Assembly: GCA_022729355.1 (NCBI GenBank)
Contig: JALDAN010000005.1
Span: 1-36,523 of the forward strand
DNA length: 36,523 nt
DNA from: Candidatus Nanohalarchaeota archaeon
GTDB taxonomy: Archaea; Nanohalarchaeota; Nanosalinia; Nanosalinales; Nanosalinaceae
Direction: 5' to 3'
Part shown: positions 1 through 36,523 of the stretch, in pieces
Numbering within the stretch: position 1 is the stretch's first letter
Layout: each line of letters begins with the position of its first letter
Program-made: the position numbers and the translations under genes
The notes under the pieces: generated by a model
Database searches by the model: none
What the model was told of the DNA's origin: nothing
What the model saw: the letters and a program-made list of their open reading frames with translations, nothing else

Positions 1-133
1 AGAAGCTAGGAAAGTTAGAGTTACCTTCAATTAGAATTTTCTTGTCTCTTTCAGAAATTTGAGAGTGGTTTCTTATACTGGTTTTCTGCCTTTGTAGTGT
101 TTGTGATATGTTGTGGATATCGCCTTGAGTCAT
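1..133 (-). CDS. Partial CDS, N-terminus of a possible tyrosine integrase
   Basis: An open frame starts at an ATG at 131-133 and runs off the left edge without a stop (44 codons). The residues around SQISERDKKILIEG resemble the N-terminal SAM-like region of archaeal XerC/D-type tyrosine recombinases, which often begins with an 'ISERNKxLILEF'-like stretch. The catalytic domain lies outside the window, so this is a weak family guess. A GGTGGAG stretch lies 11 bases before the ATG. The gene begins just past the 3' end of tRNA-Thr on the same strand, a classical place for an integrase. The fragment is AT-rich and lacks the AGGCCT hexamer common elsewhere. It could equally be an unrelated small protein. 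Confidence 0.4.
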   Translation of the reverse strand, partial: MTQGDIHNISQTLQRQKTSIRNHSQISERDKKILIEGNSNFPSF

Positions 134-192
134 ATTTCACAGTTCTCCACCCACGTTTAACTTTGACCGAATTGGTTCACAAAAGCAGTAAA

Positions 193-291
193 GCCCCCAG
201 AGGGATTTGAACCCTCGATCTGCCCCTTTCCTGCGTATGGATACTAAATCGATACAAGGGGGCCGCTCTAGCCAGACTGAGCCATGGAGGC
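193..291 (-). tRNA. tRNA-Thr (anticodon TGT) with a 25-base intron
   Basis: The minus strand folds as a full cloverleaf. The acceptor GCCTCCA pairs with TGGGGGC, the D stem is GCTC/GAGC, the anticodon stem GCCCC/GGGGC and the T arm GAGGG-TTCAAAT-CCCTC. The anticodon loop CTTGTA is interrupted after position 37 by an intron at 228-252. A bulge-helix-bulge is visible: exon CTTG pairs with intron CAGG, flanked by three-base bulges TA^T and AA^A, so the splicing endonuclease would leave a seven-base loop CTTGTAA. The mature length is 74 with no encoded CCA. The base after the acceptor is T (discriminator U73), consistent with many archaeal threonine tRNAs. A short T run follows the 3' end. Confidence 0.93.
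228..252 (-). other. tRNA-Thr intron (bulge-helix-bulge)
   Basis: This 25-base intron sits at the canonical 37/38 position. Its own core can form a small hairpin (GTAT/ATAC). The boundaries follow from restoring a seven-base anticodon loop and from the two three-base bulges around the CTTG/CAGG helix. Confidence 0.85.
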
Positions 292-359
292 CTTTTCTTC
301 TATAGTGAAAGTTGAGTGGGCTAATAGTTAAATAACTGAAACCTCCTTGACCTGTGTGT

Positions 360-1334
360 ATGAGTGATTTTCCGGAGCGATTCGTTATTACGTCGGATTT
401 TGATGAAGTAGAGGCCTGTGAGTTGGATGGCGGTAGTGTTGCTGTTGGTTTCAGGCCTTCCGGTGAGTTGCATGTCGGGAACTTGCTGACTCTGGCGTAT
501 TCTGCTGCTGTAGCTGACAGGCTGGGGCTTGAACTGGATTTGATGTGCTGTGATACTGACTGGAGTGCGCATATCCATGAGCATGACAGGCCTGATAATA
601 ATCGTGTGATGAAGCTTTTCTTTGAAAGAAGTGCTGAAGACTCCAGTTACGGGAGTGTTGCTGAGCAGCGTGTGGATGAGATCAGGCCTTTCCTTGAAGG
701 CCTTGAGGAGGAACTGGATGTGGAAGTTGATCCAGGATTCCTGTCCGATCTACAAGGCGATGAGGAGTATGCGGAGGCCTTGAGAAATGTCCTGGAGAAC
801 ATGGAAGCTTTTGACGGCATCTTCGGAGGCGGTTTCAGGAGACGTTATGTTTCTCCGGTTGTTCCGGTGTGCAGGAGCTGCGGCTTTTCACATGCTAAAG
901 GAGGTGCATTTTCAAGTGAGACGGGAGAAGTCGTGGCAGCGTGCAGAAACAGGGAGTGCAGCGAAGGTTTCATGCACGGAGGCCTTGATGATGAGATCGG
1001 TGTCTACTACTTGGTTGATCCTGTGAGAGATCCTTCCAGAGACGTTGCAGTACACGTGTTCGGCGGCGATTACAGAGATGCGAAGAAGGAGCAGAAGACC
1101 AGTAAAGTCGAGAAGGTTGCAAAGATAACGGAACTGGCGAATGATGAAACGCCTGCATACTTTCTGGCGCCGATGATTTCCGATGAAGATGGAAAACCGT
1201 TGTCCAAGTCGAAGAACACGGGGAAGACTGTATCGGAAATAGATGATCTGAAACAGTACGGGAAAGAACTGGTAGGAAAGGCCTCTGAATGGCTTGAAGA
1301 CGAGAAAAAGTATCTTCCAGAGCACAGATTATAG
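360..1334 (+). CDS. Class I lysyl-tRNA synthetase-like catalytic domain protein
   Basis: The 324-residue protein has a Rossmann-type class I aminoacyl-tRNA synthetase signature: HVGN (HIGH motif) near residue 40 within FRPSGELHVGN, and LSKSKNTGKT (KMSKS motif) near residue 280. Between them is a zinc-knuckle-like insert, CRSCGF followed by CRNREC, placed as in archaeal class I LysRS. That enzyme is normally 500 or more residues with a C-terminal helical anticodon-binding domain. Here the protein ends shortly after KMSKS, so it is a catalytic-core paralogue. It may activate an amino acid for a non-canonical acceptor, or charge tRNA without reading the anticodon; both are inference. An upstream in-frame GTG at 354 exists, but ATG at 360 is preferred. 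Its stop is 5 bases from the convergent kinase gene. Confidence 0.7.
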   Translation: MSDFPERFVITSDFDEVEACELDGGSVAVGFRPSGELHVGNLLTLAYSAAVADRLGLELDLMCCDTDWSAHIHEHDRPDNNRVMKLFFERSAEDSSYGSVAEQRVDEIRPFLEGLEEELDVEVDPGFLSDLQGDEEYAEALRNVLENMEAFDGIFGGGFRRRYVSPVVPVCRSCGFSHAKGGAFSSETGEVVAACRNRECSEGFMHGGLDDEIGVYYLVDPVRDPSRDVAVHVFGGDYRDAKKEQKTSKVEKVAKITELANDETPAYFLAPMISDEDGKPLSKSKNTGKTVSEIDDLKQYGKELVGKASEWLEDEKKYLPEHRL

Positions 1335-1339
1335 ATAAA

Positions 1340-2351: not shown

Positions 2352-2386
2352 AGATCATCATTTTCCAATTGGTACTGGTTAGACTT

Positions 2387-7939: not shown

Positions 7940-10123
7940 CTACAGATCAATTGAACGAAGCCTCGCTGAATTAGTGATAACTGAAATACTGGAAGTAAAC
8001 ATCGCAGCAACAGCTATCAACGGATGCAGAAGACCCAGGAAAGCCACAGGAATAGCCAGTGTATTGTAGATAAAGGCCCAGAAAAGATTATGCTTTATCT
8101 TGAAATAAATCGTATTAGAAAGTCTGAAAGCCTTCTCCAGAGATGAAAGACTGCCCTGCACAAGATTGACGTCGCTAGACTCCACCGCTATATCCGTGCC
8201 AGTACCGATCGCTATCCCAACATTCGCCTGCTTCAACGCCGGAGCATCATTAATCCCGTCCCCGACCATACCTACGTTCCTTCCTCTCTCCTGAAGCTCT
8301 TCAACTTTCCCGATCTTATCCTGCGGCAGTACCTCAGCCACTACATTATCTATACCGACTTCATCTGCAATAGCTTCAGCAGTATCCTTATTATCTCCAG
8401 TCAACATCCATATATCCAGTCCGAGGCCTTCAAGCTTCTCTATTGCCTCCTTTGAATCCTCCTTAACAGCATCAGCAACAGCTATCACACCAACTACTCC
8501 TCCGGATTCTGCCACGTATATAGCAGTCTTACCCTGACTCTCAAGCTCCTCCCTTTCTTCACGGAAGCTTTCCTCCAGGCCTTCCTGCTCCAGAAGCTTC
8601 GAATTACCTACAAAGACTTCTTTTCCATCTATCGAGGCCTTTATTCCTTTTCCTGTGAAGCTTTCGAAGTTTTCAGGTTCTGAAAGTTCTACTTCTCCTG
8701 AGGCCTTATTTACTATGGCTTTTCCGAGAGGGTGTTCACTTCCTTTCTCCACAGAGCCGGCGAGATACAGTACTTTTTCCCTAACTCCCACGACGTCGGT
8801 TACTTCCGGCTCTCCCTTGGTGATTGTTCCCGTCTTGTCCAGTATCAGTGTATCAAGATCTTTCATTGTCTGGATGGCCTCTCCGTTTCTGTACAGTATT
8901 CCATTACGTGCTGCGACTCCTGTTCCTGCCATCAGTGCTGTCGGTGTGGCAAGGCCTAATGCGCACGGACAGGCGATTACAAGTACTGCGACAGAAGCGA
9001 ATACTGCCAGTGTGAGAGGATCGTGAGCCAGATCTATCCATGGAACAAAGTTTTCAAAGAGTCCTGCTACAGAGATCATAAGATCTGGTGCAGCAAACCA
9101 CGCCAGGAAAGATGCTGTTGCTATAATGATTACTGCTGGTACGAAGTAGTGTGTTACTCTATCTGCAAGGCTTTGTATCGGTACTTTAGAGCCCTGAGCT
9201 TCCTCAACCATTTCCACCACCTGTGAGAAGAAAGTGTCTTCGCCGACCTTTGCCGCCTCGAACTTCAGGAGACCTGTATTATTGACTGTTGAACCTATGA
9301 CTTCATCTCCTTTCTCTTTGGAGACCGGTTCGGATTCTCCTGTAGCCATCGATTCATCAACGGAAGAACTCCCCTCTATTACTGTGCCGTCTACAGGAAT
9401 CTTCTCACCAGGCCTGACAACCACAGTATCACCTACCTCAACCTCCTCAACATCTATCTCCAACTCCTCTCCGTCACGGATCACTGTTGCAGTGGAGGCC
9501 TTCAATTCAAGTAAATCCTCTACAGCTGAACTGGCTTTACCTTTAGCTTTCTCCTCCAGATAAGTCCCTACAAGATGAGAGGCCATTATCATGGCCCCAA
9601 GGCCTGTATAATTCTGTATACCTGTGAAGAACACCATCAGGCCTGTCGAGTAAGCTGCAAGTGTTCCAAGACTGATCAGAGAATCCATATTGAAGTTGCC
9701 ATGCCTCAAGGCCTTCAAAGCAGATAAATGAGTAGTCCTGCCGAAGTAGAATACAACAGGCGTGGCAAAGACCAGCATCAAAAGATTTAATTGAATCTCC
9801 GTGAACAGATTCAGAGAAGTCCACATCTCCACCATCAAAAGTAAAATCGGGGAAGTCACAATCCAGGCCTTGATCGCCTCGGATCTGTAATCGAATTCTT
9901 CGCCTTCGTCTTCTTCATCATTTTCGGCTACGCTGTAGCCTTCTCTTTCAACAGCAGTTACAAGCTCCTCGTAAGAGGCCTCCTCGGAGTGATGTATAAT
10001 CGCTTTCTCACTGCCGTAGTTCACATTCACTTCCTCCACGTGCTCCAGATCAGCGAGGCCTCTCTCAATCGTGGACGAGCACGAGGCGCAGTGCATATCT
10101 TTTATTTCAAGTTCGGTCTTCAC
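7940..10123 (-). CDS. copA: Copper-translocating P-type ATPase
   Basis: This 727-residue P1B-type ATPase would export Cu(I) from the cytoplasm using ATP. The order is an N-terminal heavy-metal-associated domain with MHCASC (residues about 10-15), membrane helices, and an actuator domain with TGES. The transmembrane metal site CPC ([12 protein letters not shown]) follows, then phosphorylation loop DKTGTITKG, nucleotide-site HP (SEHPLGKA), hinge GDGINDAP, and final helices with FIYN and MFTSS. The CPC, YN and MxxSS combination is that of Cu(I) pumps. It lies 37 bases after the 10161-10835 gene, in a unit controlled by a palindromic promoter and next to a metal-sensing regulator. Confidence 0.97.
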
Positions 10124-10160
10124 AATTACATCATCTCTCGAGACGTATTTATTGGTATCT

Positions 10161-10869: not shown

Positions 10870-10889
10870 ATATCATATGCTGACATAGT

Positions 10890-11327: not shown

Positions 11328-11330
11328 TTT

Positions 11331-13494: not shown

Positions 13495-13511
13495 AAGGCC
13501 TTTTAGGCCTT
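13495..13511 (-). terminator. AGGCCT-built hairpin at the EF-2 stop codon
   Basis: A perfect seven-base stem AAGGCCT/AGGCCTT with a three-base loop overlaps the TAA of the EF-2 gene. A pyrimidine-rich tract (TTATCTTTTCC and following) lies beyond it on the minus strand. It is likely a terminator or a 3'-end stabilising structure. Confidence 0.5.
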
Positions 13512-15696
13512 ATTCTTCTTCGAGGCTTGGCATTTCCTGTTTCATGCCTTTTCTTTCTCTGATGTCCAGGATCTTTTCTTCCTGAAGATTCATTGGAAGT
13601 GGCTCGAAGATGATGTCGATCAGGCTGAAGAATCCCTGTCCGTTTGTAGCTGATTTCAGTGCTGCTTCGAATCCGAACAGTTCCTCTACAGGGAGCTTGC
13701 ATTTGATGACTGAGCTGTCTCCTTCTTCCTCCATGTCGATGACGTCTCCTCTTCTGTTGGAGACTTCTGTCATGGCCTCTCCCATTGTATCTGTCGGTGT
13801 ATCGATTCTCAGCTTCTGCTTCGGCTCGATCAGTTCTGGGCCTGCCTGCAGGAATCCTCTTGTCATGGCATCTTTCGTCGCCGGGATCATCTGTGCAGGG
13901 CCTCTGTGGATTGCGTCTTCGTGCAGCTTTGCGTCGTGAAGCTTGACCTTGAAGCCGATTACAGGCTCGTTTGCAAGCGGTCCTTCGTCACAGAATTCCT
14001 TGAATGCGTCGACAAGGTATTCCTCGATCTCTCGCAGATTCTTGATTCCTCTGGATGCGTTGACAAACATGTTCTCCTCGTATACCTCCATGACGTTGTC
14101 TGCCTCGTCCTTGTCCATTCCTGCCTCGATCAAGGCCTCTTTGATTTCATGCTGTTCATCCGCCTGCATTTTGACTTCCTCGTACTCTTCCTTGAGGAAC
14201 TTTCTGACAGATTCCTCCAAAGGCTCTACGCTGATCTCAAGCTTGTTGTGCCGGTTCGGGGACTTCCCTGTGACTTCCGGGGAGGCCTCTGTGATTCCTT
14301 CTCTGAATACGACGATCGGCTCTGAAACTTCAATGTCGATTCCCTGTTCCTCCAAGTGTCTTTCTACTTTAGCCTCGATGTGTAGTTCTCCAAGGCCTGA
14401 GACTGTTGTCTCTCCTGTTTCCTCATCGATGTCGACTTGGATTGTGTTGTCCTCCTTACTTCTTTTTCTCAGTTCCTCAATCAGCTTCGGTAGATCGCTG
14501 GTACGCTTCGGCTCAATCGCCTTTGTAACGACTGGTTCGAAGACGTGCTCAATCTGTTCGAACGGCTGAATCTCTTCCGCGTCCTTTGCGATTATTGTCT
14601 CTCCTGTTGAGAAGTCAGGTCCTGTGATCGCCGCAATATTTCCTGCCGGTACCTCGTCCACGGTAAGCTTTCTTGGTCCTGAGTAGATCCCTACCTGCTG
14701 TGCTCTTTCCTCTTTGTGTGACTCGATTCCGTATAGTTCATCTCCTTCATGTACGGTTCCGGAGAAGATTCTGGCAGTTGCGATTGTTCCTGCGTGCTCG
14801 TCGTCTTCAACGTTGGTGACGACTCCTACGAAAGGACCGTCTTGGTCCTGCTTGGCCATCGACTGTCCTACTTCGGAATCTGCGTCTCCAGGCCAGATAG
14901 CCGGGATACGGTACTGTGAAGATTCCTGAGGATTGTTAAGGTGTTTAACTACCATATCAAGTACGACTTCCTCAATAGGCGCATCTTCTGAAAGGCCTTC
15001 ATGGTCGCCATTGTTTACTCTTTCAATTATATCTGAGAAAGTGATGCCTGTCTCCTGCATGTAAGGAGCGGAAATAGCCCAGTTCTTCAATGCTGATCCG
15101 AAAGCTACTGTTCCATCATTTACAGCCATCTGCCATCTTTCAGCTGTTTCCTCATCAGAATACTTTCTCAAAATGTTATTTACTTTCCTAATGATCTCAG
15201 TGAATCTTTTCTGCATCTCCTCCGGTGTAAGCTGCATCTCCTCTATCAGTCTATCGACTTTGTTGATGAACAGTACCGGCTTGACACCTTCATTCATAGC
15301 CTGTTTCATGACCGTCTCTGTCTGAGGCATAACACCATCAACAGCGTCAACAAGCACTACAACACCATCAACAGCACGCATAGCACGGGTAACGTCTCCT
15401 CCAAAGTCAACATGCCCAGGAGTATCAATAAGATTTACAAGATAGTTAGAGCCATCGTACTCGTGGACCATCGAGATGTTGGCAGAGTATATAGTGATAC
15501 CTCTCTCCGCCTCCTGATCATCGAAATCCATGAAACGCTGATCTCCAGCCAGCTTCTCCGAAATCATGCCTGCACGGGCAAGAAGATTATCTGTTAACGT
15601 AGTTTTACCGTGGTCAATGTGTGCAGCGATAGCAATGTTCCTGATATGCTCAGGATCATTAATTACCTCCTGAATTGCGTCAAGCTCTTTACTCAT
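13510..15696 (-). CDS. fusA: Translation elongation factor EF-2
   Basis: This archaeal aEF-2 has about 728 residues and drives ribosome translocation by GTP hydrolysis. Motifs seen are AAHIDHGKTTL (G1), RGITI (G2), DTPGHVDFGGD (G3), NKVDRL (G4), and the domain IV loop KLHEDAIHRGPAQ with its His near residue 597, the site modified to diphthamide. The ATG at 15694-15696 (MSKELDAIQ) is chosen over an in-frame ATG nine codons upstream because family members start here. It lacks the usual EF-1A/S10 neighbours; Tat genes separate it from S7. The Dph6-containing fusion at 31307 would act on this protein. Confidence 0.98.
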   Translation of the reverse strand: MSKELDAIQEVINDPEHIRNIAIAAHIDHGKTTLTDNLLARAGMISEKLAGDQRFMDFDDQEAERGITIYSANISMVHEYDGSNYLVNLIDTPGHVDFGGDVTRAMRAVDGVVVLVDAVDGVMPQTETVMKQAMNEGVKPVLFINKVDRLIEEMQLTPEEMQKRFTEIIRKVNNILRKYSDEETAERWQMAVNDGTVAFGSALKNWAISAPYMQETGITFSDIIERVNNGDHEGLSEDAPIEEVVLDMVVKHLNNPQESSQYRIPAIWPGDADSEVGQSMAKQDQDGPFVGVVTNVEDDEHAGTIATARIFSGTVHEGDELYGIESHKEERAQQVGIYSGPRKLTVDEVPAGNIAAITGPDFSTGETIIAKDAEEIQPFEQIEHVFEPVVTKAIEPKRTSDLPKLIEELRKRSKEDNTIQVDIDEETGETTVSGLGELHIEAKVERHLEEQGIDIEVSEPIVVFREGITEASPEVTGKSPNRHNKLEISVEPLEESVRKFLKEEYEEVKMQADEQHEIKEALIEAGMDKDEADNVMEVYEENMFVNASRGIKNLREIEEYLVDAFKEFCDEGPLANEPVIGFKVKLHDAKLHEDAIHRGPAQMIPATKDAMTRGFLQAGPELIEPKQKLRIDTPTDTMGEAMTEVSNRRGDVIDMEEEGDSSVIKCKLPVEELFGFEAALKSATNGQGFFSLIDIIFEPLPMNLQEEKILDIRERKGMKQEMPSLEEE

Positions 15697-15817
15697 TTTT
15701 ACATATACACCGAGTTTATACACCAGAAATTCTTTACAAGATTTAAAAAAGGCCTACTCAAAAAGTAACTAAGACTTCTTCCTGCTACTACTGTGAAGGC
15801 CTATGCTGACAAGTATT

Positions 15818-20964: not shown

Positions 20965-22083
20965 CTAGTCGTCATCACCGGGTGCGAATTTAGGTTTTAG
21001 ATCAATCATGCCAGTACCGTTAGGCATCGGCTGACCGACAAGGATGTTCTCAATAACTCCTTCAAGATCATCTGTTTCACCGCGTAGAGATCCTTCACGA
21101 AGATGCTTCTTCGTCTCCTCGAAGACAGACCTTGCAAGGATAGAATCCTTATTGCCCATGATACCGTAACGAGTGGTACCGTTGAGCTCTCCTTCTTTTG
21201 TCATCATATCAGCTAGGAGCATGATATGTCTATCATCAACTCCGATTCCCTGAGCTTCCAGAGTCTCGTTAACTTCATCAACAATAGTCTGCCTCAAGGC
21301 CTCAACTCCAAGCACTGACAGTATCTCGAACAGGTCATTGCTTTTCGTCCTAGTCTCATCAACTTCCTTGATCTTCAGAGTCTTCCTCAAGGAGCTACCT
21401 GCTGTCTGAAGCCTCCACTCGCCATCCTGTTCGTTGACGACTACCTGCTCGATGCCTTTCAGGCCTTTGATCCGGGCCTCTTCAGCTTTTACTTTGATCT
21501 TCTTCAAGTCTCTAAGATCGTAATCATCCTTTGAGGACTCCAGTACGATATTGTTTCCATCTACTGAGACCTTTGACTTTCTTACTGATTCCTCGATACG
21601 GGCCTTGACGTCTTCCGCATCGATGTCGTAGTCATCCAGTAGATCTTCATTAAGCTTGTACTCTACCTGAAGCTGCATTATATCGATTGTATCCTGAGTT
21701 ATCAGGTCTTCAAGTACGACCTGTCTAAGCTTTCGTGCAACCTCAAGAGCATCATCCTTCGAATTATAATCCTCGTGAAGATAAACGTCCATAGCCGGTG
21801 TCTTCGGATTTCTTCTGGCATCGACAATCTCAATTAGACGTGGCAATCCTGCTGTAAGAGATACCTGTGCTCCTCCAGCCTGGTGGTACGTCTCCATAGT
21901 AAGCTGCGTAGCAGGCTCGGAAAGCGACTGAGCCGCAACAACTCCGATCGATTCACCTGGCTCGTACTGCATCTGCCTGTAACGCTCCTCAAGCTTTTCC
22001 TTCTCTTCCTGTGAGAGGCCTCTACCCTGATACAGCTGAGGTAGTTCCTCTGCACGCTCCTTCCATTCAAGTCTATCTGACAT
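20965..22083 (-). CDS. rpoA2: RNA polymerase subunit A''
   Basis: This 372-residue C-terminal half of the split largest subunit carries the bridge-helix/trigger-loop side: EPGESIGVVAAQSLSEPATQLTMETYHQAGG, then LPRLIEIVDARRNPKTPAM, and the C-terminal cleft region. The A'/A'' split is normal in Archaea. It begins 15 bases after rpoA1 ends. Codon pattern and coordinates match the rest of the rpo operon. Confidence 0.98.
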   Translation of the reverse strand: MSDRLEWKERAEELPQLYQGRGLSQEEKEKLEERYRQMQYEPGESIGVVAAQSLSEPATQLTMETYHQAGGAQVSLTAGLPRLIEIVDARRNPKTPAMDVYLHEDYNSKDDALEVARKLRQVVLEDLITQDTIDIMQLQVEYKLNEDLLDDYDIDAEDVKARIEESVRKSKVSVDGNNIVLESSKDDYDLRDLKKIKVKAEEARIKGLKGIEQVVVNEQDGEWRLQTAGSSLRKTLKIKEVDETRTKSNDLFEILSVLGVEALRQTIVDEVNETLEAQGIGVDDRHIMLLADMMTKEGELNGTTRYGIMGNKDSILARSVFEETKKHLREGSLRGETDDLEGVIENILVGQPMPNGTGMIDLKPKFAPGDDD

Positions 22084-22098
22084 TTTATTTTTACACCT

Positions 22099-24573
22099 CT
22101 AATCAAGACTGATAGATGTCGAAAGACGGCCTCTATCAGATTTTTGCGGATCTACTCCGTCCTCTCCTGCACGGAACTGGATGATATCTCCCTGTGCATT
22201 ACGTACAGTCTGATCGTATTCCACGCGTAGATCCTGTAATGCGTTTGCAACACGCCTATACATGTACCCGGATGTCTTTGTACGAAGTGACTTGTCCATC
22301 AGGGCCTTTCTCTGGCTCATCTGGTGGAAAAACATCTCCTGTGGATCAAGGCCTTCAAGGATACTTGAGGAAACAAATCCTCTTGATTCCGGAGTCATCT
22401 CTCCCTTCTTGAAGTGAGAAAGCGTTCTCTCGTTGTATCCTCTCTCAATTCTCTGGCTACGGACCGAGTTCTGTCCAAGCAGGCCCGCCATCGTTGTAAC
22501 GTTCTGCATACTTCCTCTTGCACCGGAGTCTGCCATGACATAAGCTGAAGATTCCTCGCTGAAGTTATCTGAGATCAGATCTCCGATATCTGCGAAGACT
22601 TCGTTCAGTGTCTTCGTGATCTTGATTTCTCTAGTCTCCTCCAGAGTCTTTCCTGTGATGGCCTCCATGTCTCCGGCCTCGTACTCATCAAGAAGCTTGT
22701 TTGCCTCTTCAACTGTATCCTCAATCATGTCTCTAATCTGTTCTGTTGCCTCATCCGGCACTTCCAGATCTTCAAGGCCTATAGAGAATCCGCGCTGTGT
22801 CAGGAAGATTGCCCCGACACGTGATACACGGTTGAGGAACTCTGCGACTTTATCACTTCCGTACTCGATGCTTAGTTGCTGGATAATTTCTCCTCCATAG
22901 TCTCCAAGAGCATCCTCATCAAGCACTCCATCGATCAGTTCTCCGTCTTCAATCACTACTTCGTCTTCCTCTCCCTCATTAATCGTCAGTGAGATATCTT
23001 CAGGTATGAAAAGTGAGACAAGCTCTCTTCCCGAAATCTCTTCCTTATCCGGAAGATCTGCCTCATACTCTCCTGCGTCAGCAAGCAGATTGAAGGCCTT
23101 TTCCCTGGAAATAGTTCTGTCCGGCTGCGTTAGCAGATAAAGGCCTGAAACGTAGTCCTGAAGCATACCTACAATCGGGCCTCCCATCTTCGGAGACTTT
23201 ACGTGCTCCTGGACTTTCATCAGTTCCTCTGCTTCTGCACGGGCTTCCTCTGTCTGTGGTACGTGCAGGTTCATCTCGTCTCCGTCGAAGTCTGCGTTGT
23301 AAGGTGCGCAGACGTTCAGGTTTAGGCGGAAAGTCCTGTACGGAAGTACACGGACTTCGTGCGCCATGATCGACATTCTGTGCAGGGATGGCTGACGGTT
23401 GAAAAGTACTGTGTCACCATCGCTAAGCTGTCTCTCAACTTTCCATCCTTCATCAGGTGCGATCTCTTCAAGTATTTCTTCCTTATTTTCTTCTGTAATT
23501 CTTTTTCTCTTCCCGCTTGGCGGATAAACGTAGTTCGCTCCAGGATGAGTTTCAGGTCCGTTCTCGATACGTTCCTTCATCTCATCAATATTACGTTCAT
23601 TCACTTTCTCAGGGATTGTAAGCTTCTTAGCAATAATATAAGGTACTCCAACCTCGTTGATCCCGATATTCGGATCCGGGGAGATAACCGTTCTTGCCGA
23701 GAAGTTGACACGCTTCCCGATCAGGTTCTCACGGAAGCGTCCCTGCTTCCCCTGTACACGCTCCACCAACGACTTCAGTGAACGGCCTGAACGATGTCTT
23801 GCCGGCGGAACGTTACTCATGTCGTTGTAGAACAGTGTCGCAACGTGGTACTGAAGCAGTTCGTGAAGATCATCGATAATAAAGTCAGGGGCCTCGATTT
23901 CAATATTGTTCTGAAGCCTCTTGTTGATCCTGATAACATCGACAAGTTTATGAGTGATATCATCCTCTGAACGTTCACCTGTCTCCAAGGTGATTGAAGG
24001 CCTCATCGTCACAGGAGGAACAAGAAGCTTCTCGATAATCAGGTCTTCAGGTCTTCCTCCTTCCACTCCAAGCTTTGCAGCCATTTCATCCGGTATCTTC
24101 TCGAATCTTTCTTTAATCTCTCCAGGCAGTATCTTTTCCCCATCCTCATAATATGTGTAAGGCTTATCAAATCCTATATCAGGCACTTCCTCTCCTGTTT
24201 CAGGATCTTCAGTTAATCTATTTGATTTTCTCAAAGGCTTGTCTTCATCTTTCAGAAGAAGCGATACTGATCCATCTTCGTGAACATTTGTAAATCTCAG
24301 AAGGTTTCTAACTTTCTTGGCGTAAAGAGAGTGTACTACAGGCCTTGAAAGAGTAATCTTTCCGAAGTGACCCTGGCATTCTCTCATCTGGCCTCCACAT
24401 GTCTGACATGTCATCCCTGGATCAATTACTCCCAGTGCAGGATCCATGACTCCTCCTTCTACAGGATATCCGTCTGCATCGTAGACCTCTGCCTTATTGA
24501 TTTCTTTTACAGCATTTTCTTCAACTTCTCTCGTGCTAAGGATTCCGAAATCCAGTTCAGTGATACTTTTCAT
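22099..24573 (-). CDS. rpoA1: RNA polymerase subunit A'
   Basis: This 824-residue N-terminal half of the largest subunit has a first zinc site CQTCGGQMRECQGHFG and the catalytic NADFDGDEMNLH (three Asp residues chelating Mg), plus FNRQPSLHRMS. The second, archaeal-type CxxC...CxxC zinc module that normally follows around residues 100-150 is absent: that stretch (LLRFTNVHEDGSVSLLLKDED...) has no Cys, and the protein is shorter than typical A' subunits. It is otherwise complete and co-directional with rpoB1 (19 bases upstream). Confidence 0.98.
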   Translation of the reverse strand: MKSITELDFGILSTREVEENAVKEINKAEVYDADGYPVEGGVMDPALGVIDPGMTCQTCGGQMRECQGHFGKITLSRPVVHSLYAKKVRNLLRFTNVHEDGSVSLLLKDEDKPLRKSNRLTEDPETGEEVPDIGFDKPYTYYEDGEKILPGEIKERFEKIPDEMAAKLGVEGGRPEDLIIEKLLVPPVTMRPSITLETGERSEDDITHKLVDVIRINKRLQNNIEIEAPDFIIDDLHELLQYHVATLFYNDMSNVPPARHRSGRSLKSLVERVQGKQGRFRENLIGKRVNFSARTVISPDPNIGINEVGVPYIIAKKLTIPEKVNERNIDEMKERIENGPETHPGANYVYPPSGKRKRITEENKEEILEEIAPDEGWKVERQLSDGDTVLFNRQPSLHRMSIMAHEVRVLPYRTFRLNLNVCAPYNADFDGDEMNLHVPQTEEARAEAEELMKVQEHVKSPKMGGPIVGMLQDYVSGLYLLTQPDRTISREKAFNLLADAGEYEADLPDKEEISGRELVSLFIPEDISLTINEGEEDEVVIEDGELIDGVLDEDALGDYGGEIIQQLSIEYGSDKVAEFLNRVSRVGAIFLTQRGFSIGLEDLEVPDEATEQIRDMIEDTVEEANKLLDEYEAGDMEAITGKTLEETREIKITKTLNEVFADIGDLISDNFSEESSAYVMADSGARGSMQNVTTMAGLLGQNSVRSQRIERGYNERTLSHFKKGEMTPESRGFVSSSILEGLDPQEMFFHQMSQRKALMDKSLRTKTSGYMYRRVANALQDLRVEYDQTVRNAQGDIIQFRAGEDGVDPQKSDRGRLSTSISLD

Positions 24574-24592
24574 TCAATGAAACACCTCTGCT

Positions 24593-26386
24593 TTAATCCT
24601 CCAGATCGACGTCTACGTCGATCATCAGGGATTTTAGCTCGTCAAGCAGTAGCAGCATCGCATGAGGAATCTCCGTCTCCTCGAAGTTCCCTGTCTCTCC
24701 GCTCTGCTTTACAACCTTGTTGTTCTCTCGGTCAAGGTAACCGATATCGCCGGAGTCCTTATCCACATGTATCTTAGTGGAGTCAGCACCGAACCTCTCC
24801 TTCAACAGTAGAGAGGCTCCATGTCCAACGAAAACGTCCTTTTCCATCTCTCCAAGCCGGAGGCCTCCCTCCTGGCTCCTTCCTTCTGTCGGCTGCTTTG
24901 TAAGTAGTGTGACAGGTCCTCTGCTTCTTGCGTGAACCTTGTCTCCAACCATGTGGCTTAGCTTGAGGTAGAATCCTGGGCCTATCATTATTTCGGCCTC
25001 CATCTCTTCCCCTGTTACACCATTGTACATGGTCTCTTTTCCTGAGGATTCGAAGCCCATTTCTTCAAGTTGATCTCTGAGCTTGTCCTTGTCCTCTCCG
25101 TGGTATGCTGTGGAGTCTACTTTCTCTCCACGCAGTGCTCCGACTTTTCCTGCAATTAACTCGATTATCTGCGACACGGTCATACGGCTCGGGATCGCGT
25201 GTGTCGAAAGGATCATATCCGGAGTGATACCCTGCTTCGTGAAAGGCATGTTCTCCTCCGGTGAAATCATTCCGATAACTCCTTTCTGTCCGTGGCGTGT
25301 AGCGAACTTGTCACCGAGCTCAGGGATTCTGTACTCTCTCAACTTGGCCTTGATCAGTTTGTCACCATCACCTGTCTCTGAAAGCATAACCTTGTCGATT
25401 ACTCCCTGCTCTCCGTGTCTTACAGTCAGGCTTGTCTCCCTTCTCTCTGCAAGCCCCATCTTCATCTCTTCACCGCCTCCTCCAAGGAACTTCGGAGGAC
25501 TTGTCTTACCTACGATAACATCATCTGAATCAACTTCTGTCTCAGGATTAACGATTCCATCCTCATCCAGATGCTCATAGGCCTCTTCACGTCTGTATCC
25601 ACGAACATCCTTGTCCGGGATGCTGATCCTGTCTTTCTGGCCTCCGTAGAAACGTTTGGCCTCTGTCTTGTACGTTCTCATGTAAGTGGAACGTCCCAGG
25701 CCTCTCTCGATAGAGGCCTTGTTCATGATTATTGCGTCCTCGATGTTGTATCCATCGAAGGAAGCCAGTGCGATTATCATGTTCTGTCCGATCGGATGAT
25801 CTCCGACAAGCGTGTCGTAAGTATTTGTATCGACGATCGGCTGCTGTGCGTAGGTCAGCACGTTCTGCCGTGTGTCGAAGCGTTGATGTAGCTCTCTGGA
25901 AGGCATTCCGAGGCCCTGTCCTGCCATCTTTGCTCCGAAGTTCACTCTATCCCCACGATTGTGTTCCGGATAAACTGTCAGTGAAGCTGATACGCCGTGG
26001 ATGATCTCTGAGTCGATTTCCATGTGTGTATGCTCTTCTGTGACTTCACTTTCATCCATAGCGACATAGGCATTCTCTTCTTCCTCTGCGTCGATGTACT
26101 CAACTACTCCTTCCTCAATAAGATCTTCGAGGCCTATCTCTCCTTCGTTAAGTTGTTCTCTCTGATCATCTGTCAAAAGGGCTTCACCGTCTTCAACGAT
26201 TACTACAGGCCTCATGACTCTTCCGGAGTCAGTGTTGATCCTTATCTCGTCACGGTTCTCATTATAGTATACTGAGATTTCCTCCTCAAGTTCTCCTTCT
26301 CTTCTTTTCTCGATCAGGTCTTCCTTTATTTCTTCAGGTGATTCAACGCTGTCAACAATCTCTCCGTCAATGAATACTTCAGTCAT
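24593..26386 (-). CDS. rpoB1: RNA polymerase subunit B'
   Basis: This 597-residue C-terminal half of the second-largest subunit has the conserved ASFDGYNIEDAIIMNKASIERGL, GDKFATRHGQKGVIGMI and GGLRLGEMEKD blocks. The zinc ribbon usually near the end (C-x2-C...C-x2-C/H around 'CELCG ... YVCP') is replaced by KIHVDKDSGDIGYLD ... VVKQSGE with no Cys. The C-terminal helix PHAMLLLLDELKSL is intact. It lies 19 bases from rpoA1 and is preceded by the separate rpoB2 gene, so B is split as in Euryarchaeota. Confidence 0.98.
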   Translation of the reverse strand: MTEVFIDGEIVDSVESPEEIKEDLIEKRREGELEEEISVYYNENRDEIRINTDSGRVMRPVVIVEDGEALLTDDQREQLNEGEIGLEDLIEEGVVEYIDAEEEENAYVAMDESEVTEEHTHMEIDSEIIHGVSASLTVYPEHNRGDRVNFGAKMAGQGLGMPSRELHQRFDTRQNVLTYAQQPIVDTNTYDTLVGDHPIGQNMIIALASFDGYNIEDAIIMNKASIERGLGRSTYMRTYKTEAKRFYGGQKDRISIPDKDVRGYRREEAYEHLDEDGIVNPETEVDSDDVIVGKTSPPKFLGGGGEEMKMGLAERRETSLTVRHGEQGVIDKVMLSETGDGDKLIKAKLREYRIPELGDKFATRHGQKGVIGMISPEENMPFTKQGITPDMILSTHAIPSRMTVSQIIELIAGKVGALRGEKVDSTAYHGEDKDKLRDQLEEMGFESSGKETMYNGVTGEEMEAEIMIGPGFYLKLSHMVGDKVHARSRGPVTLLTKQPTEGRSQEGGLRLGEMEKDVFVGHGASLLLKERFGADSTKIHVDKDSGDIGYLDRENNKVVKQSGETGNFEETEIPHAMLLLLDELKSLMIDVDVDLED

Positions 26387-26465
26387 TCTGTTCTCACCTG
26401 TACGTTGTTTTCAGTTTTTCTGTTTCGTCCTTCTCCTCTGATATTCTGTGTTTTCATTTCTCTTT

Positions 26466-27923
26466 TCACCTTGCGTCGATACCTGCATCCTGAAGCTTTG
26501 CCTTAAGCGAGTTCCTCTCCATATCAGTCATTCCTGTGGAGACATCTGCCGTCATCGCTAGATGGGTTCTAAGTCCGATGTTCATACCTTCAGGGGTTTT
26601 GATAGGGCAGACACGCCCCCAGTGCGTTGGATGGAGGTCTCTGGCCTCGAAGTGTTGTCTGTCGCTTGAAAGAGGGGAGACAATATTTCGCAGGTGTGAA
26701 AGTGTTTTGATCCTGTTGTTTCTCTCCAGTCTCTGGCAGATACCTGTTCTTCCGCCAACCCAGTTTCCTGTAGCCATAGCTCCCATAATCTGGGATGTCA
26801 GCTTGTCGGAAACGATTGTAGACTGCAGGCTTGGAAGTCGTCCTCTCTTAGCTGACTTCTGGAAGTTGTACTTCATACGTGCGACAAGACCCCATTTACC
26901 TAGGAAGACGCTTCTGAACTGCATCTCCAGAAGCTCCCCGGCTAAATTCAGGCGTTTGTTGGCGTAGTGGTCAATGTCATCCTCATTGATGTCTCCTTTA
27001 CCGAGTGCAATAGTATTTCTTATCATCTTCGTCAGGAAGATCGCCTTCTCCTCTCTGTTCTCAGGCTCTTGTCCAAGATGCGGTAGAAGATACTGGTCAA
27101 GAATGTTCTGTACTCTTTCCGGAACATCATTTGTGATTCCAGCTCTATTCGCAATATACTGGAAGGCCTCTTCCTGATCTGATGCGTCTACTTCATAGAG
27201 ATTCAGGTAGACGTCGGATGCATAATCCTCTCCGATAGCCTCTACGATTTCCTTATCTGTTTCCATGCCGAGTGCTCTTACTAATGCGACTGCAGGCGTC
27301 TTCTTCACGTTAGCGAAGCTGATATTTACGATATCTTTCTTTCTTCTGAGGATATGTCTCTGAACGTATCCCTGATTCTCTGAATTGATACGGCACTTTT
27401 CTTCATCATCGTCAAGCTGATATACAGGCTTGTTGTTCGCCAGTTCCTCCATAGCGATGATCGTCTTTTCAGATCCGTTTACGATAAAGTATCCTCCAGG
27501 ATCCTTTGGATCTTCACCTGCCTCTCTCAGTTCATCTTCATCCATCTCTGATGTCCAGCAAAGATCGCTGCCGATCATAACAGGGATCTCTCCGATAGTA
27601 ACTTCCTCAGATTCCTGCTGAATCCCCTCAAAGATAGGCGTCAATGTAACACGAATCTCTGATGAATAAGTAAGATCTCTCATTCGGGCCTCTCTAGGCA
27701 TTATTTCTCTTACAGAACCGTCAGCTTCGTTGATTCGAGGCCTCTTGATATCAACGTCAACGATCTTGATGACGAGGTCTTCTCCTTCAGGTAGTTCAGG
27801 CTCGATTGACTCGACTTCATTCAGTATGGCCTGAATCCTGTCTTCCACGAATCGGTTGTAGGATTCGATCTGGTGTTTAACAAGGTTACGATCAATCAGA
27901 TTCTCCAGGAACTCTTCTTGCAT
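26466..27923 (-). CDS. rpoB2: RNA polymerase subunit B''
   Basis: This 485-residue N-terminal half of the split B subunit contains the lobe and protrusion, with GGYFIVNGSEKTIIAMEELA, the fork region and RKKDIVNISFANVKKTPAVALVRALG, ending just before the B' junction (CPIKTPEGMNIGLRTHLA near the end). The 79-base gap to rpoB1 shows the split is real and not a frameshift. It starts 13 bases after rpoH ends and is probably co-transcribed. Confidence 0.98.
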   Translation of the reverse strand: MQEEFLENLIDRNLVKHQIESYNRFVEDRIQAILNEVESIEPELPEGEDLVIKIVDVDIKRPRINEADGSVREIMPREARMRDLTYSSEIRVTLTPIFEGIQQESEEVTIGEIPVMIGSDLCWTSEMDEDELREAGEDPKDPGGYFIVNGSEKTIIAMEELANNKPVYQLDDDEEKCRINSENQGYVQRHILRRKKDIVNISFANVKKTPAVALVRALGMETDKEIVEAIGEDYASDVYLNLYEVDASDQEEAFQYIANRAGITNDVPERVQNILDQYLLPHLGQEPENREEKAIFLTKMIRNTIALGKGDINEDDIDHYANKRLNLAGELLEMQFRSVFLGKWGLVARMKYNFQKSAKRGRLPSLQSTIVSDKLTSQIMGAMATGNWVGGRTGICQRLERNNRIKTLSHLRNIVSPLSSDRQHFEARDLHPTHWGRVCPIKTPEGMNIGLRTHLAMTADVSTGMTDMERNSLKAKLQDAGIDAR

Positions 27924-28286: not shown

Positions 28287-28949
28287 CTAAAATACAGAGT
28301 CCTTCTCACGCATAGAGTAGAAACTCTTCCCAGCTATAAAGTGATCAAGAACCTCCACACCCATCTTATCACCGATATCAAGTAATTCACGTGTGACTTC
28401 TCTACCCTCTGCTGTGGAGGAGGCCTCTCCGGAAGGATGATTGTGTATAAGTATCATTGCAGCTGCGTTGCAGTTGAAGGCCTCACTGAATATATCTCGT
28501 GGATTGAAGCCGACTCTGGATACTCCTCCATCGAACTCTTTCTTCGCCAGTAGCTCGTTGCCAGATGATAGGTAGAGGACTCTGAGTACTTCCTCTTCCA
28601 TGAATTTCATGTCTCCGCAGACAGCTTTTACATCGCTTAGAGATGCTATTTTCTCTCTTTCCTCTTTCTTCAGTCTTCTTGATAGTTCTCCGATGGCCTG
28701 AAGCTGGCCTGCCTTCACACGGGAAACTCCGTCGAACTGCTTCAGCTCTTCGAGGCCTCTGTCCGCTATTTCATCCATAGAATACGTGTTCAGTATTTCG
28801 GATGAGAGCTCCTTGACGTTCTTGCCTTTAGTGCCTGTGCGAAGAAGTATCGATAGAAGCTCCACATCCGTCAAGTGTCCCGGGCCATGCTTCCCAAGTT
28901 TTTCACGAGGCCTCTCACTCTCCGGCAACTCCTTAATCGTGTAATCCAT
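28287..28949 (-). CDS. radC: RadC/JAB-domain-like protein
   Basis: This 220-residue protein resembles RadC: an N-terminal helix-hairpin-helix DNA-binding part (LTDVELLSILLRTGTKG and FDGVSRVKAGQLQAIGEL), then a JAMM-fold domain with MILIHNHPSG. In RadC the HxH histidines and a later Asp (Ser-x-x-Asp) bind zinc. Here the positions read TAEG, so the Asp is replaced by Gly and the Ser by Thr. Enzymatic activity is therefore uncertain, and RadC family function itself is unsettled. It lies upstream of rpoH in the same direction. Confidence 0.88.
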   Translation of the reverse strand: MDYTIKELPESERPREKLGKHGPGHLTDVELLSILLRTGTKGKNVKELSSEILNTYSMDEIADRGLEELKQFDGVSRVKAGQLQAIGELSRRLKKEEREKIASLSDVKAVCGDMKFMEEEVLRVLYLSSGNELLAKKEFDGGVSRVGFNPRDIFSEAFNCNAAAMILIHNHPSGEASSTAEGREVTRELLDIGDKMGVEVLDHFIAGKSFYSMREKDSVF

Positions 28950-28989: not shown

Positions 28990-29535
28990 CTACAGTCGTA
29001 TGATATCATCTTCCGGTAGATCATCAAGAGAGGCCTCAGTATCAACTTCTATTGAGGATATCCTGAAAGGCCCCGAATACTTGCTGATGTATGTTTCCGG
29101 TAGTGTGTATGTATCCAGTTCCTCGTGTTCTTCTGCGAAAGGATCTACGTTGTTACCGTTGACAAGCACAAAGTCGCCTTCCTCCAGTTCTTCAGGATCT
29201 TTTCCCGTATACTGCATCTGTGTGCCTGATTCATTTACGAATCTCCAGGCCCGTCTTCCCTTATTCACTAAATCTAGTTGTCTATCGCCTAGATTACGAT
29301 AGGCATCGTAGAAATCTGAAGTCACTCTATCCAGTATGTAGGCTGTCTTACCAGCTTCTTCTGCCAGTTGATCGACTTCATCTACAGGCCTTTCACTTCT
29401 TACAGACATACGCCATTCAGTGACTTTCCTGTAGGCATTATCAATAAGTCTTACGGCCGCCTCCTCAAACTCATCATCAGTGAGATCGTTCTCAAGTAGA
29501 TATTGAGTATCAAGCTCTCCGTTATCAAGATACAT
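28990..29535 (-). CDS. Hypothetical acidic protein
   Basis: This 181-residue soluble protein is not recognised. It has an N-terminal helical half (DEFEEAAVRLIDNAYRKVTEWRMSVR) with a middle resembling a domain of helices, then a beta-rich C-terminal region (MQYTGKDPEELEEGDFVLVNG ... ISKYSGPFRISSIEVD) of a kind seen in small SH3- or Tudor-like barrels. ATG start and acidic composition support coding. It lies between radC and the divergent nucS. Confidence 0.65.
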   Translation of the reverse strand: MYLDNGELDTQYLLENDLTDDEFEEAAVRLIDNAYRKVTEWRMSVRSERPVDEVDQLAEEAGKTAYILDRVTSDFYDAYRNLGDRQLDLVNKGRRAWRFVNESGTQMQYTGKDPEELEEGDFVLVNGNNVDPFAEEHEELDTYTLPETYISKYSGPFRISSIEVDTEASLDDLPEDDIIRL

Positions 29536-29610: not shown

Positions 29611-30405
29611 ATGAAGCATTTGCTTGAAAACCCTGATTTTGAGAAGGCCTCTGAAGTACTGGATGAGTATCTTAAGCGTGATTTCACGATTCAAATGAAT
29701 GGCCTCTGCACTGTTAATTATCAGGGCCGTGCTAAATCAAAGCTTGATAGAGGGGAGAGATTAGTTATCAAGAAGCAGGATTCTGCGATCCTTGTTCACG
29801 GGCCTGAAAACTATCAGCCGAAGAACTGGCAGCCTGAAGTGGACTCTTACAGCGTGAAGGTAGAATATATTGAAGATGAGGAGATGCTTGTTCTTGAGGC
29901 TCGACGTAACAATCCTGATGAAGTAGTGGAGATACGTTTCGAGTCAATAGATTTACTGACAGTGCACAAGCTTGTGGATAAATCTGATCTGAAGATTCGA
30001 GGCCATGAAGTAGACATACACGAAGCCATAGAGGACGATCCAGATATCGTGGAGGAAGGCCTCAACGTTGTTAAAAGAGAGAAAGAGACTCCTGCAGGAT
30101 TCATCGACGTATTTGCACGTGATGAAGATGATCAATACGTTGTTATAGAAGTGAAGAGGAATCCTGACTACAACACGGTACTGCAGCTTCAGAGATACGT
30201 GGATGAGATAGAGGAAGAGTTCTCGGGAGAAATCAGAGGCATACTGGTAGCTCCAAAAATGACGCAGAAGATACTTGATTATCTAGAGGATAGAGGCCTT
30301 GAATTCGTTGAAGTCGAGATGGAAGATGTTATATCAAGTTACGAGGCCATCGATCAGAGTCAGAAAGGCCTTTCAGATTTCGGTGCAGATTACTCTACTG
30401 AATGA
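29611..30405 (+). CDS. nucS: NucS/EndoMS mismatch endonuclease
   Basis: This 264-residue NucS-type nuclease cleaves both strands at mismatched base pairs. The C-terminal PD-(D/E)XK core shows GFIDVFARDEDDQYVVIEVKR (Asp and E-x-K) and downstream LQLQRYVDEI. The N-terminal dimerisation and binding domain is the first 115 residues, with a CTVNYQGRAKSKL-type stretch. Length agrees with the family. It would act in non-canonical mismatch repair with the PCNA clamp; a C-terminal PCNA-interacting tail is expected, and the end here (QKGLSDFGADYSTE) has an aromatic motif that may serve. Confidence 0.92.
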   Translation: MKHLLENPDFEKASEVLDEYLKRDFTIQMNGLCTVNYQGRAKSKLDRGERLVIKKQDSAILVHGPENYQPKNWQPEVDSYSVKVEYIEDEEMLVLEARRNNPDEVVEIRFESIDLLTVHKLVDKSDLKIRGHEVDIHEAIEDDPDIVEEGLNVVKREKETPAGFIDVFARDEDDQYVVIEVKRNPDYNTVLQLQRYVDEIEEEFSGEIRGILVAPKMTQKILDYLEDRGLEFVEVEMEDVISSYEAIDQSQKGLSDFGADYSTE

Positions 30406-34767: not shown

Positions 34768-35148
34768 TTCCATTTCCCACTCATATCTTCCTAACTTTCT
34801 TCTATAGAGGCCTATAATTCATTATTTTTCCTTGTTCTAGAATGCGGCAAAAGTAAAGAAAAATAGATACGTAGGGAGTTGCCCTGTTCCACTTATCCAA
34901 GGATGCCTTTAGCGGCCGTCAGTACCTTGTTAAGAAGTCTTTCTTCCTGGAACTGGACTGGAATCTGATGTCCGGTATCGTCAAGAAAATCTGACTCAAC
35001 CATACTCTAAACCTGTCCACCAAACCTTATAAGCATTATTCGAAAACGGTGCTGACTGTTTGAAAACGTTCAGAAACGTTTATACAGGACTCTTTAATCA
35101 ATTCAGAGAATCTAAGAATAATATCTGCTGAAAACGCATTCAGAGGCC
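34768..35148. other. 380-base gap between rps8e and drg
   Basis: Besides the 36-residue frame at 34893-35003, this gap has one AGGCCT copy at each end and a palindromic CTTATAAG at 35026-35033. The right part holds short repeats: GAAAACG at 35042, 35062 and 35130 and GAAACG at 35073. No tRNA, rRNA or obvious structured RNA is seen. Confidence 0.4.
34893..35003 (-). CDS. Possible 36-residue protein
   Basis: ATG at 35001-35003 opens a 36-codon frame to a TAA at 34893-34895. It begins MVESDFLDDTGHQIPVQFQ and ends with AAKGILG. The palindromic TATA-like CTTATAAG lies 27 bases before the ATG, the spacing expected for a leaderless archaeal gene, and its acidic N-terminus suits the proteome. I recognise no family. 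It could be spurious. Confidence 0.4.
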   Translation of the reverse strand: MVESDFLDDTGHQIPVQFQEERLLNKVLTAAKGILG

Positions 35149-36225
35149 TCATATGTGCCTAAGATTGAGCTGAAGGATATCCTCATCCTGAAGTTCGTGT
35201 TCCTCTCCTACCTTCTGTTCCGGGAACTTTGAGCTTGGGCCTGTTACTCTGGCGTGTTTGAAGCGGTCTTTCATGTCGCCAGGCAGTATTTCAAGTGCAT
35301 CAGCTACTTCATCTCCCTCCCTCAAGATTAAAGGCTCTTCTTTATCCGGTTCTTCTCCTTTCTCCTTCATGTACACTCTGATAAGGCCCATCCTGTCGAA
35401 TATCATATCCTTCAAGTCGTCAAGGCCTTCCTCCTTCTCTGCGGAGATCAGTAGATCGTATTCTTCATATTCAGACTTGTCTTCGATCATATCTGCCTTG
35501 TTGACTACTTTGATACCTGGAAGATACTTTCTGTTATTCATGAGTGCGTCAATAAATCTATCAAGATCCAGATCCTCTCTGATTATGACTTCAGCGTTAC
35601 TGTATCCGTTATTGTACATCAAATCCTGAATAGTCTCCTCTTCCACATCCAAGTCGACTGTGGCTGACACGTTTATTCCACCACGATCTTTCTTCTCCAC
35701 GCGTACTTCAGGTGGTTGCTTGTTCATCCTGAGGCCTGCCTTGTAGACTTCGTTCATTATCTCCTCTTCACGCATCTCCTCCGGATCCAGAACTATCAGT
35801 ATGAGATCGGCGTTTCTGACGACCGAAAGCACCTGTGTGCCTCCTCCTCTGCCGTCAGCTGCTCCTCCTATAAGGCCTGGGACGTCAAGTATCTGTATAT
35901 TGGCTCCTTTATGTTTCAGCATCCCGGGATTTACTTCAAGAGTGGTGAATTCATAGGCTCCTGTATCCACTTCAGCGTTAGTGAGTTTGTTCAAAAGTGT
36001 GGATTTCCCTACACTTGGAAAGCCTACAAGTGCGACAGTTGCGTCTCCTCTTTTCTCTACAGCGTATCCTGAGGTGTCTCCCGTACCTTTCGCCAGTTTC
36101 TGCTTCTTCTCCTTCAGCTTCGCTATCTGGCTTTTAATCCGGCCTCTCTCCTTCTCAGTAGCCTTGTTCACCGGCGTCTTCTGGAGCTTCTCCTCCAACT
36201 CCTCAATACGATCCTCAACACCCAT
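35149..36225 (-). CDS. drg: Drg-family GTPase with TGS domain
   Basis: This 358-residue Drg/Rbg protein is an Obg-like GTPase associated with translating ribosomes. It has the N-terminal helical EERLQKTPVNKATEKERGRIKSQIAKLKEK region, P-loop GFPSVGKST, DVPGLIGGAADGRGGG (G3 with Gly-rich stretch), NKADMI (G4), SAEKEEG (G5), and a C-terminal TGS domain (IRVYMKEKGEEPDKEEPLILREGDEVADAL). A TTATAATAT promoter element lies about 33-41 bases before the ATG. A complete copy. Confidence 0.95.
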   Translation of the reverse strand: MGVEDRIEELEEKLQKTPVNKATEKERGRIKSQIAKLKEKKQKLAKGTGDTSGYAVEKRGDATVALVGFPSVGKSTLLNKLTNAEVDTGAYEFTTLEVNPGMLKHKGANIQILDVPGLIGGAADGRGGGTQVLSVVRNADLILIVLDPEEMREEEIMNEVYKAGLRMNKQPPEVRVEKKDRGGINVSATVDLDVEEETIQDLMYNNGYSNAEVIIREDLDLDRFIDALMNNRKYLPGIKVVNKADMIEDKSEYEEYDLLISAEKEEGLDDLKDMIFDRMGLIRVYMKEKGEEPDKEEPLILREGDEVADALEILPGDMKDRFKHARVTGPSSKFPEQKVGEEHELQDEDILQLNLRHI

Positions 36226-36372
36226 ACATACAGAAAACCCTGCAAACTTGAAAAAACCATATTATAACAGATAATCTAAACAATGTGGGAACAGAAGGCC
36301 TATCAGATAATCTAGCCACTATTTGCTGGAAAGTGAAATTGAATAGAAAATGAGGGATATGGAGGCCTATCT
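36226..36372. promoter_or_regulatory. Upstream region of drg with direct repeats
   Basis: The drg TATA lies at about 36258-36266 (minus strand). CAGATAATCTA occurs at 36268-36278 and again at 36304-36314, 36 bases apart; its core AGATAATCT is near-palindromic. Two AGGCCT copies are also present. The repeats may be binding sites for a regulator. Confidence 0.35.
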
Positions 36373-36523
36373 TTATTCTGTCTGCTGGATGCTTCCGTCT
36401 CTGCTGATGTTGAGCTGGATGTCATCCGCCCATTCGCGGACGTAGGCTCCTTCGATCTCTACCTTGGCTCCTTCTTCTATTGCATCGATTTCTTCTTCCC
36501 ATAGTGTGAGATCTACTCTCCCT
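36373..36523 (-). CDS. Partial CDS, C-terminus of an RPA-like OB-fold protein
   Basis: The frame enters from the right edge and stops at TAA 36373-36375. The 50 visible residues read GRVDLTLWEEEIDAIEEGAK followed by VEIEGAYVREWADDIQLNIS and a short acidic tail. The 'GxxDLTLW' and 'V.I.GAYV.EW...IQL.' spacing is that of the last strands of an OB fold in archaeal RPA/SSB proteins, which bind single-stranded DNA. The start and the rest of the domain lie beyond the window. Confidence 0.65.
   Translation of the reverse strand, partial: GRVDLTLWEEEIDAIEEGAKVEIEGAYVREWADDIQLNISRDGSIQQTE

Follow-up and report, generated by a model that had tools for sequence, protein, structure and literature searches.

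The DNA analysed here (the window) is a 36,523-nt stretch of a Candidatus (Ca.) Nanohalarchaeota archaeon (GenBank assembly GCA_022729355.1, contig JALDAN010000005.1) that carries genes for elongation factor 2, RNA polymerase subunits and the mismatch endonuclease NucS/EndoMS. The six-base palindrome AGGCCT recurs throughout the window and is almost certainly a highly iterated palindrome (HIP). The window's own assembly, G000, comprises 886,350 b in 48 contigs, is 90% complete and belongs to genus g1. The RNA polymerase A' protein shares 89% identity with that of Ca. Nanosalina sp. J07AB43 (G021), a member of the same genus, and the organism is a Nanosalina-type nanohaloarchaeon; such archaea are reduced members of DPANN that live on haloarchaeal hosts. 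Comparisons were made in a sample of 28 genomes of the phylum Nanohalarchaeota, labelled with G numbers. Coordinates of the features are listed in Table 1.

AGGCCT is the top-ranked of all hexamers in the window, with 138 copies by program count. A first-pass annotation, made by eye from the letters, had put the number at 135–140 and the excess at 15- to 20-fold over an expected 7–9; base composition predicts 7.1, and both estimates hold. Null expectations were taken from simulated Markov chains of orders 1–4 and, for coding sequence, from synonymous-codon shuffles. The chains gave 7.4 ± 3.1 copies at order 1, 28 ± 6 at order 2 and 65 ± 8.5 at order 3, the last being the comparison proposed in the first-pass annotation and well under the observed count. 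The order-4 expectation of 131 is trivial, as AGGCC and GGCCT are already inside the model. Coding sequence of G000 has 198 copies observed vs 23 after codon shuffling, and the shuffles leave AGGCCT 8- to 9-fold in excess. The density in the window is 5.1/kb outside predicted genes vs 3.5/kb within, and amino-acid use is indeed insufficient as a cause. Copies within genes occupy all three frames (51/40/18) and genes of both strands (78 on −, 31 on +), and other NGGCCN palindromes are scarce (TGGCCA 2, GGGCCC 1, CGGCCG 5), as had been described. The whole of G000 contains 3601 copies vs 459 of the reversed word TCCGGA, which bears out the suspicion of a genome-wide signal. With about 20-fold over-representation, the word is also, as anticipated, not a depleted restriction target.

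Table 1. Features of the window and of related genomes. Positions without a genome label are those of the window; AGGCCT positions are start positions.
Feature	Location	Strand	Remarks
AGGCCT palindrome	1..36523		138 copies across the whole window, ~1 per 265 bp
First AGGCCT copies	288, 412, 453, 588, 684, 698, 775, 980, 1279, 1488, 1736, 1774
Last AGGCCT copies	35144, 35423, 35732, 35873, 36296, 36363
Dense AGGCCT run outside annotated genes	33945..34342		copies at 33945, 33966, 34116, 34263, 34337
NucS/EndoMS mismatch endonuclease gene	29611..30405	+	NucS_C, NucS_N; NCBIfam NF003270 above cut-off; PDB EndoMS 5gke E=4e-39
Elongation factor 2 gene	13510..15723	−	named by reading the protein; orthologous DNA in J07AB43 without AGGCCT
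RNA polymerase subunit genes A'', A', B', B''	20965..27923	−	named by reading the proteins; J07AB43 ortholog stretch L155
AddA/AddB-like helicase-nuclease pair	G016:C1:621456-626764; G020:C1:352179-357489		patchy in the phylum
86-amino-acid acidic protein	G020:C1:585363-585623; G016:C1:325166-325417; G019:C1:139887-140144; G000:C40:24572-24826
Metal-resistance-type island nearly without AGGCCT	G020:C1:388172-400623		L127 region

Two other enriched genomes, G016 (complete) and G020, were analysed over their full sequence. Conserved genes of G016 hold 2098 copies vs 257 ± 18 in codon shuffles, and its intergenic DNA has 5.2/kb vs 0.15/kb expected. Permissive positions were defined as coding sites whose amino acids allow AGGCCT (Arg-Pro, x-Gly-Leu and [KEQ]-Ala-x). 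The word fills 81%, 82% and 70% of these, respectively, in G016 and 47–54% in G020. Occupancy is even over genome tenths, strands and gene conservation, the ribosomal cluster being like the rest, and is reduced only at gene starts. A strong directional pressure keeps AGGCCT genome-wide and near-uniform on both strands, in genes of all conservation levels and between genes. Copies number zero in tRNA genes, and G020 divergent promoters have 0.68/kb vs 2.5–4.7/kb elsewhere.

The pressure also shifts amino acids. In 256 aligned orthologs of G016 and the non-enriched G017, 105 Arg-Pro pairs were found only in G016 vs 27 only in G017 (p 5e-12), and 358 Gly-Leu pairs only in G016 vs 151 only in G017 (p 2e-20); both pairs have been gained in G016. 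Individual sites are mildly conserved only. At conserved amino-acid pairs, shared AGG-CCT in G016 and G020 had an odds ratio of 3.7, against a control median of 2.1 and a 90th percentile of 3.7. The conservation of copy positions raised in the first-pass annotation is thus present to a modest degree, as expected if the sites are interchangeable; density, not place, is maintained.

The pressure depends on GGCC as the core, flanked by A on one side and T on the other. Over the full genomes, AGGCCT is enriched 19.3x in G016 and 9.2x in G020, GGCC with one A/T flank 1.3x and 2.75x, and GGCC with neither flank 0.4x and 0.81x. The two outer flanks act independently in G020 and cooperatively in G016 and G000. 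One-base deviants were measured relative to G017: those in an outer letter are raised 2.4- to 19-fold and those inside GGCC stand at 0.6- to 1.0-fold. GGCC depletion in G017 inflates the outer-letter ratios and leaves the missing inner deviants unaffected. No extended motif was found around the hexamer beyond a purine preference just before it. Spacing has an effect at short range. Filling of x-Gly-Leu positions in G016 is 50% with another AGGCCT within 25 bp and 88% at a distance of at least 90 bp (p 4e-21), the effect in intergenic DNA is limited to 15–25 bp, and filling is flat once the surrounding gap exceeds ~400 bp. The simplest reading of the under-filled close sites is avoidance of 6-bp hairpins in RNA or single-stranded DNA, because AGGCCT pairs with itself.

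Strong enrichment was found in six of the 28 genomes, from four genera: G000 (g1), G013 and G014 (g3), G016 (g5), and G019 and G020 (g8). G012 (g3) is moderately enriched (~7x). G019 is Ca. Nanohalovita haloferacivicina BNXNv, and the non-enriched G018 is Ca. Nanohalococcus occultus SVXNc (PMC10266531). Composition-corrected excess, calculated from genome samples, is 21x in G000, 23–26x in G013/G014, 16x in G016, 15x in G019 and 10x in G020. The remaining genomes have 30–340 copies each, near or under chance, including G021 (325) and G022 (292) of the same genus as G000. The comparison of relatives suggested in the first-pass annotation therefore gave a divided result, with very strong enrichment in some and none in others. 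No substitute over-represented hexamer was found in the non-enriched relatives. Across all aligned stretches of orthologous DNA, J07AB43 also has AGGCCT at only 3 of 61 G000 sites; at the others it most often has AGGTCT/AGACCT (10 cases). When the relationship of G016, G020 and G017 was checked, the outcome divided almost equally three ways. Gains and losses of the word amount to at least two changes, and the pressure can appear or vanish from one species to the next within a genus.

Other words are depleted in this sample. GGCC falls to 0.15–0.4 of expectation in samples of G015, G017 and G025 (L045, L043, L046), and TGCA to 0.09 in G018; both fit restriction avoidance. A GDGCHC system has reportedly been published for SVXNc. 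In coding DNA of the enriched G016, G019 and G020, some of the strongest depletion is seen in words that include GGGAC/GTCCC, perhaps as another restriction target or a side effect.

Recently acquired DNA is without AGGCCT. In the metal-gene island of G020, 1 of 41 permissive sites is filled vs ~52% genome-wide (p 6e-12), and further near-empty parts are a cluster encoding large proteins of surface type and a stretch close to an element resembling a plasmid or virus. In these genomes, horizontal transfer can be dated by the absence of the word. A search for AGGCCT-dense viral contigs among 76 stretches found none of at least 10 kb with G000-like enrichment, and the lone higher short match (L310) has regularly spaced, tandem-like matches. 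The window has a metal-gene cluster of its own (7940–12980), which looks to encode a copper/heavy-metal P-type ATPase alongside a number of small membrane and regulator genes; its AGGCCT density is normal, unlike that of the nearly devoid G020 island. Elsewhere, the window encodes a RadC-like JAB-domain protein with a UPF0758 N-terminal domain (28287–28949), here in an archaeon, adjoining a gene of unknown family (28990–29535).

The first-pass annotation had listed a methylation mark of a solitary methyltransferase among possible roles and pointed to the GGCC-family enzymes. Neither idea is supported. PF00145 matched no enriched genome and was seen only in the non-enriched G017, G018 and G025. 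Searches with five Pfam families found no DNA methyltransferase common to the enriched genomes, and four of the six (G000, G013, G014 and G020) are without any. PF02086 is absent from these four, and PF01555, PF02384 and PF07669 gave only weak, short matches, which by length and position are probably Trm11-like or HemK-like RNA or protein methyltransferases. Motif scans of G016 and G020 agreed with Pfam, and the G020 proteome is without DNA-type motif IV. A broken Eco57I-like gene is all that G016 has, and G019 carries HsdM and a type III Mod gene. MutS is absent: MutS_V (PF00488) gave no match in any of the 28 genomes but did score in control genomes, and no MutL-like motif was found in G016 or G020 apart from topoisomerase VI. 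NucS/EndoMS is the sole mismatch-repair nuclease recognised, and the window's gene also aligned in the non-enriched J07AB43.

A gene hunt covered ~290 genes common to G016 and G020 and unseen in sampled non-enriched DNA. Of these, 73 were checked in five non-enriched genomes, G017 being compared over half only, and the rest looked like core genes. Nearly all 73 are present in non-enriched genomes, and a few are missing from G000 and the five alike. A single one occurs in G000 but in none of the five. It encodes an 86-amino-acid protein that matches no known family and adjoins the glycyl-tRNA synthetase gene (GlyRS) in G016 and G020. It was found only in enriched genomes (G000, G016, G019 and G020) and is missing in the g3 genomes, which are 68–92% complete. 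At the G017 locus, GlyRS and the following gene lie 68 bp apart and leave no room for it. The link of this protein to enrichment may be chance, given its selection out of 73 segments and its absence from g3. This protein and the AddAB-like helicase-nuclease are leads to the agent behind the pressure; the latter and NucS/EndoMS are no more than candidates for that role.

In the explanation favoured here, a DNA repair or recombination step would recognise (A)GGCC(T) and bias mismatch repair or conversion towards AGGCCT. Any one-step neighbour turning into AGGCCT would be retained, and over time the word would fill almost every protein-permitted position, even changing some amino acids. The source of the bias would be neither a conventional self-encoded methyltransferase nor MutS-type mismatch repair; we infer the step for an organism that repairs mismatches by a route other than MutS. 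This whole explanation, a HIP kept by biased repair or conversion in a cell without its own conventional methyltransferase or MutS, has about an even chance of being right. Repair or conversion bias as the cause is proposed tentatively, a little short of even. A new HIP cause, in which a methylation-free, MutS-free site-specific system of repair, recombination or DNA binding drives the near-saturation, is lost and gained within genera and possibly involves the 86-amino-acid protein, is plausible at somewhat less than probable strength. Several points count against biased repair. No enzyme with AGGCCT specificity was found. The negative methyltransferase result covers Pfam families and motif scans, and an enzyme of unrecognised kind is possible. 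The three unfinished strongly enriched genomes are 68–90% complete. Purely local bias would not predict under-filling near another site, and weak uniform selection for binding sites would give most of the same statistics.

Such selection is the main rival to repair or conversion bias, although it is rather unlikely. An abundant nucleoid, segregation or replication protein would maintain one site per 100–200 bp, in keeping with the palindromic site, its graded core-plus-flank specificity, the under-filling of close sites and the depletion in G020 divergent promoters. The intergenic spacing effect reaches only 15–25 bp, however, filling is flat beyond the ~400-bp gap, and closely related genomes manage without any such word. 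Methylation of AGGCCT or GGCC by the organism's own solitary methyltransferase, with methyl-directed repair multiplying the sites as for HIP1, is improbable. Elhai ties HIP1 and the sporadic alternate HIPs of cyanobacteria to orphan methyltransferases (PMC4390886), the end-biased deviations of AGGCCT match the HIP1 pattern described there, and GGCC is a common methyltransferase core, but the enriched genomes share no such enzyme, PF00145 included. The absence of MutS from all 28 genomes means that the methyl-directed MutS repair model of that work cannot run here as written. The methylation might instead come from outside or from the past, through a haloarchaeal host's methyltransferase or an enzyme recently lost, with the sites as a by-product. 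This would agree with the lack of a self-encoded enzyme and with the varying degree of enrichment (G012 ~7x to G014 ~25x). More symbiont-type methylation on host DNA has been reported in co-culture, and exchange through methyltransferase export proposed (PMC11001535), but that transfer runs from symbiont to host and concerns only 2–3% of sites. Even G020 shows no rise in decay products within GGCC, which speaks against recent loss, and an outside or past source is unlikely overall. Among the causes, methylation from any other source, be it an unrecognised enzyme or one supplied by the host, ranks a little below binding-site selection, and the remaining ones rank lower.

A Chi-like recombination hotspot of an AddAB-type helicase-nuclease is quite improbable. 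All 7 enriched genomes have an AddB-like protein (PDDEXK_1), as do 5 of the 12 other family members (Fisher p 0.017, uncorrected for kinship), and in G016 it is paired with an AddA-like UvrD helicase-nuclease. However, AddB is equally similar in the non-enriched G017, G018 and G026, none of which has a comparable over-represented hexamer. The DNA uptake word also suggested in the first-pass annotation is very improbable. The word is short, lies in coding and non-coding DNA on both strands and is missing from acquired islands, as expected of uptake words too, and type IV pilus-type ATPase genes are present. Non-enriched genomes carry the pilus ATPase segment just as well, though. The word is a bare hexamer with only a preceding purine preference, and 4–5/kb at ~80% saturation lies far beyond the demand of one signal per fragment. 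That the word merely follows from codon or amino-acid usage, or from low-order composition, has next to no chance: the order-4 chain reproduces the count, but only via the word's own 5-mers, and the artefact was ruled out by the synonymous shuffles, the density between genes, the comparison with sister species and the gains in protein sequence.

No prior report of AGGCCT in these archaea was found in the open literature, with subscription journals and REBASE outside that scope, and the BNXNv genome paper (PMC10266531) seems to be silent on it. BNXNv is an enriched organism cultured with its host, and whether HIPs need methylation is directly testable in it. These reduced genomes also carry a warning that a pressure acting on the DNA can skew both protein sequence and codon statistics.

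Uptake words of Haemophilus and Neisseria are short and repeated in and between genes, with an extended motif of ~9–12 bases and preferred flanks. AGGCCT likewise lies in and between genes and is absent from new islands, but is a six-base palindrome with no extended flank and a density several times higher. Chi sites of RecBCD/AddAB are directional and not palindromic. AGGCCT resembles them as an over-represented short word in genomes with an AddAB-type enzyme, but is palindromic, much denser and more strongly enriched, and relatives with similar AddB are without the word. It shares its core with type II restriction sites such as GGCC but is enriched, not avoided. The closest likeness is to the HIPs of cyanobacteria, namely HIP1 (GCGATCGC) and the alternate HIPs GGCGCC, rCCGGy, GCsGC, GGGATCCC and TCGATCGA (PMC4390886). 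The first-pass annotation had noted the resemblance to HIP1. Like these HIPs, AGGCCT is the dominant over-represented palindrome, occurs genome-wide in coding and intergenic DNA, is patchy among relatives and deviates mainly in its outer letters. It differs from HIP1 proper in its word, which is not GCGATCGC, and in its bearer, a DPANN nanohaloarchaeon and not a cyanobacterium, and its density is 2–5/kb vs ~0.5–2.5/kb for cyanobacterial HIPs. HIP1 has been without an agreed cause for decades, the leading idea being orphan methyltransferases with MutS repair. AGGCCT has the descriptive features of a HIP and lacks the cognate methyltransferase and the MutS of this proposed cause. It is a stronger HIP case, with ~80% of possible sites filled, the proposed partners missing and close relatives without the word as controls.

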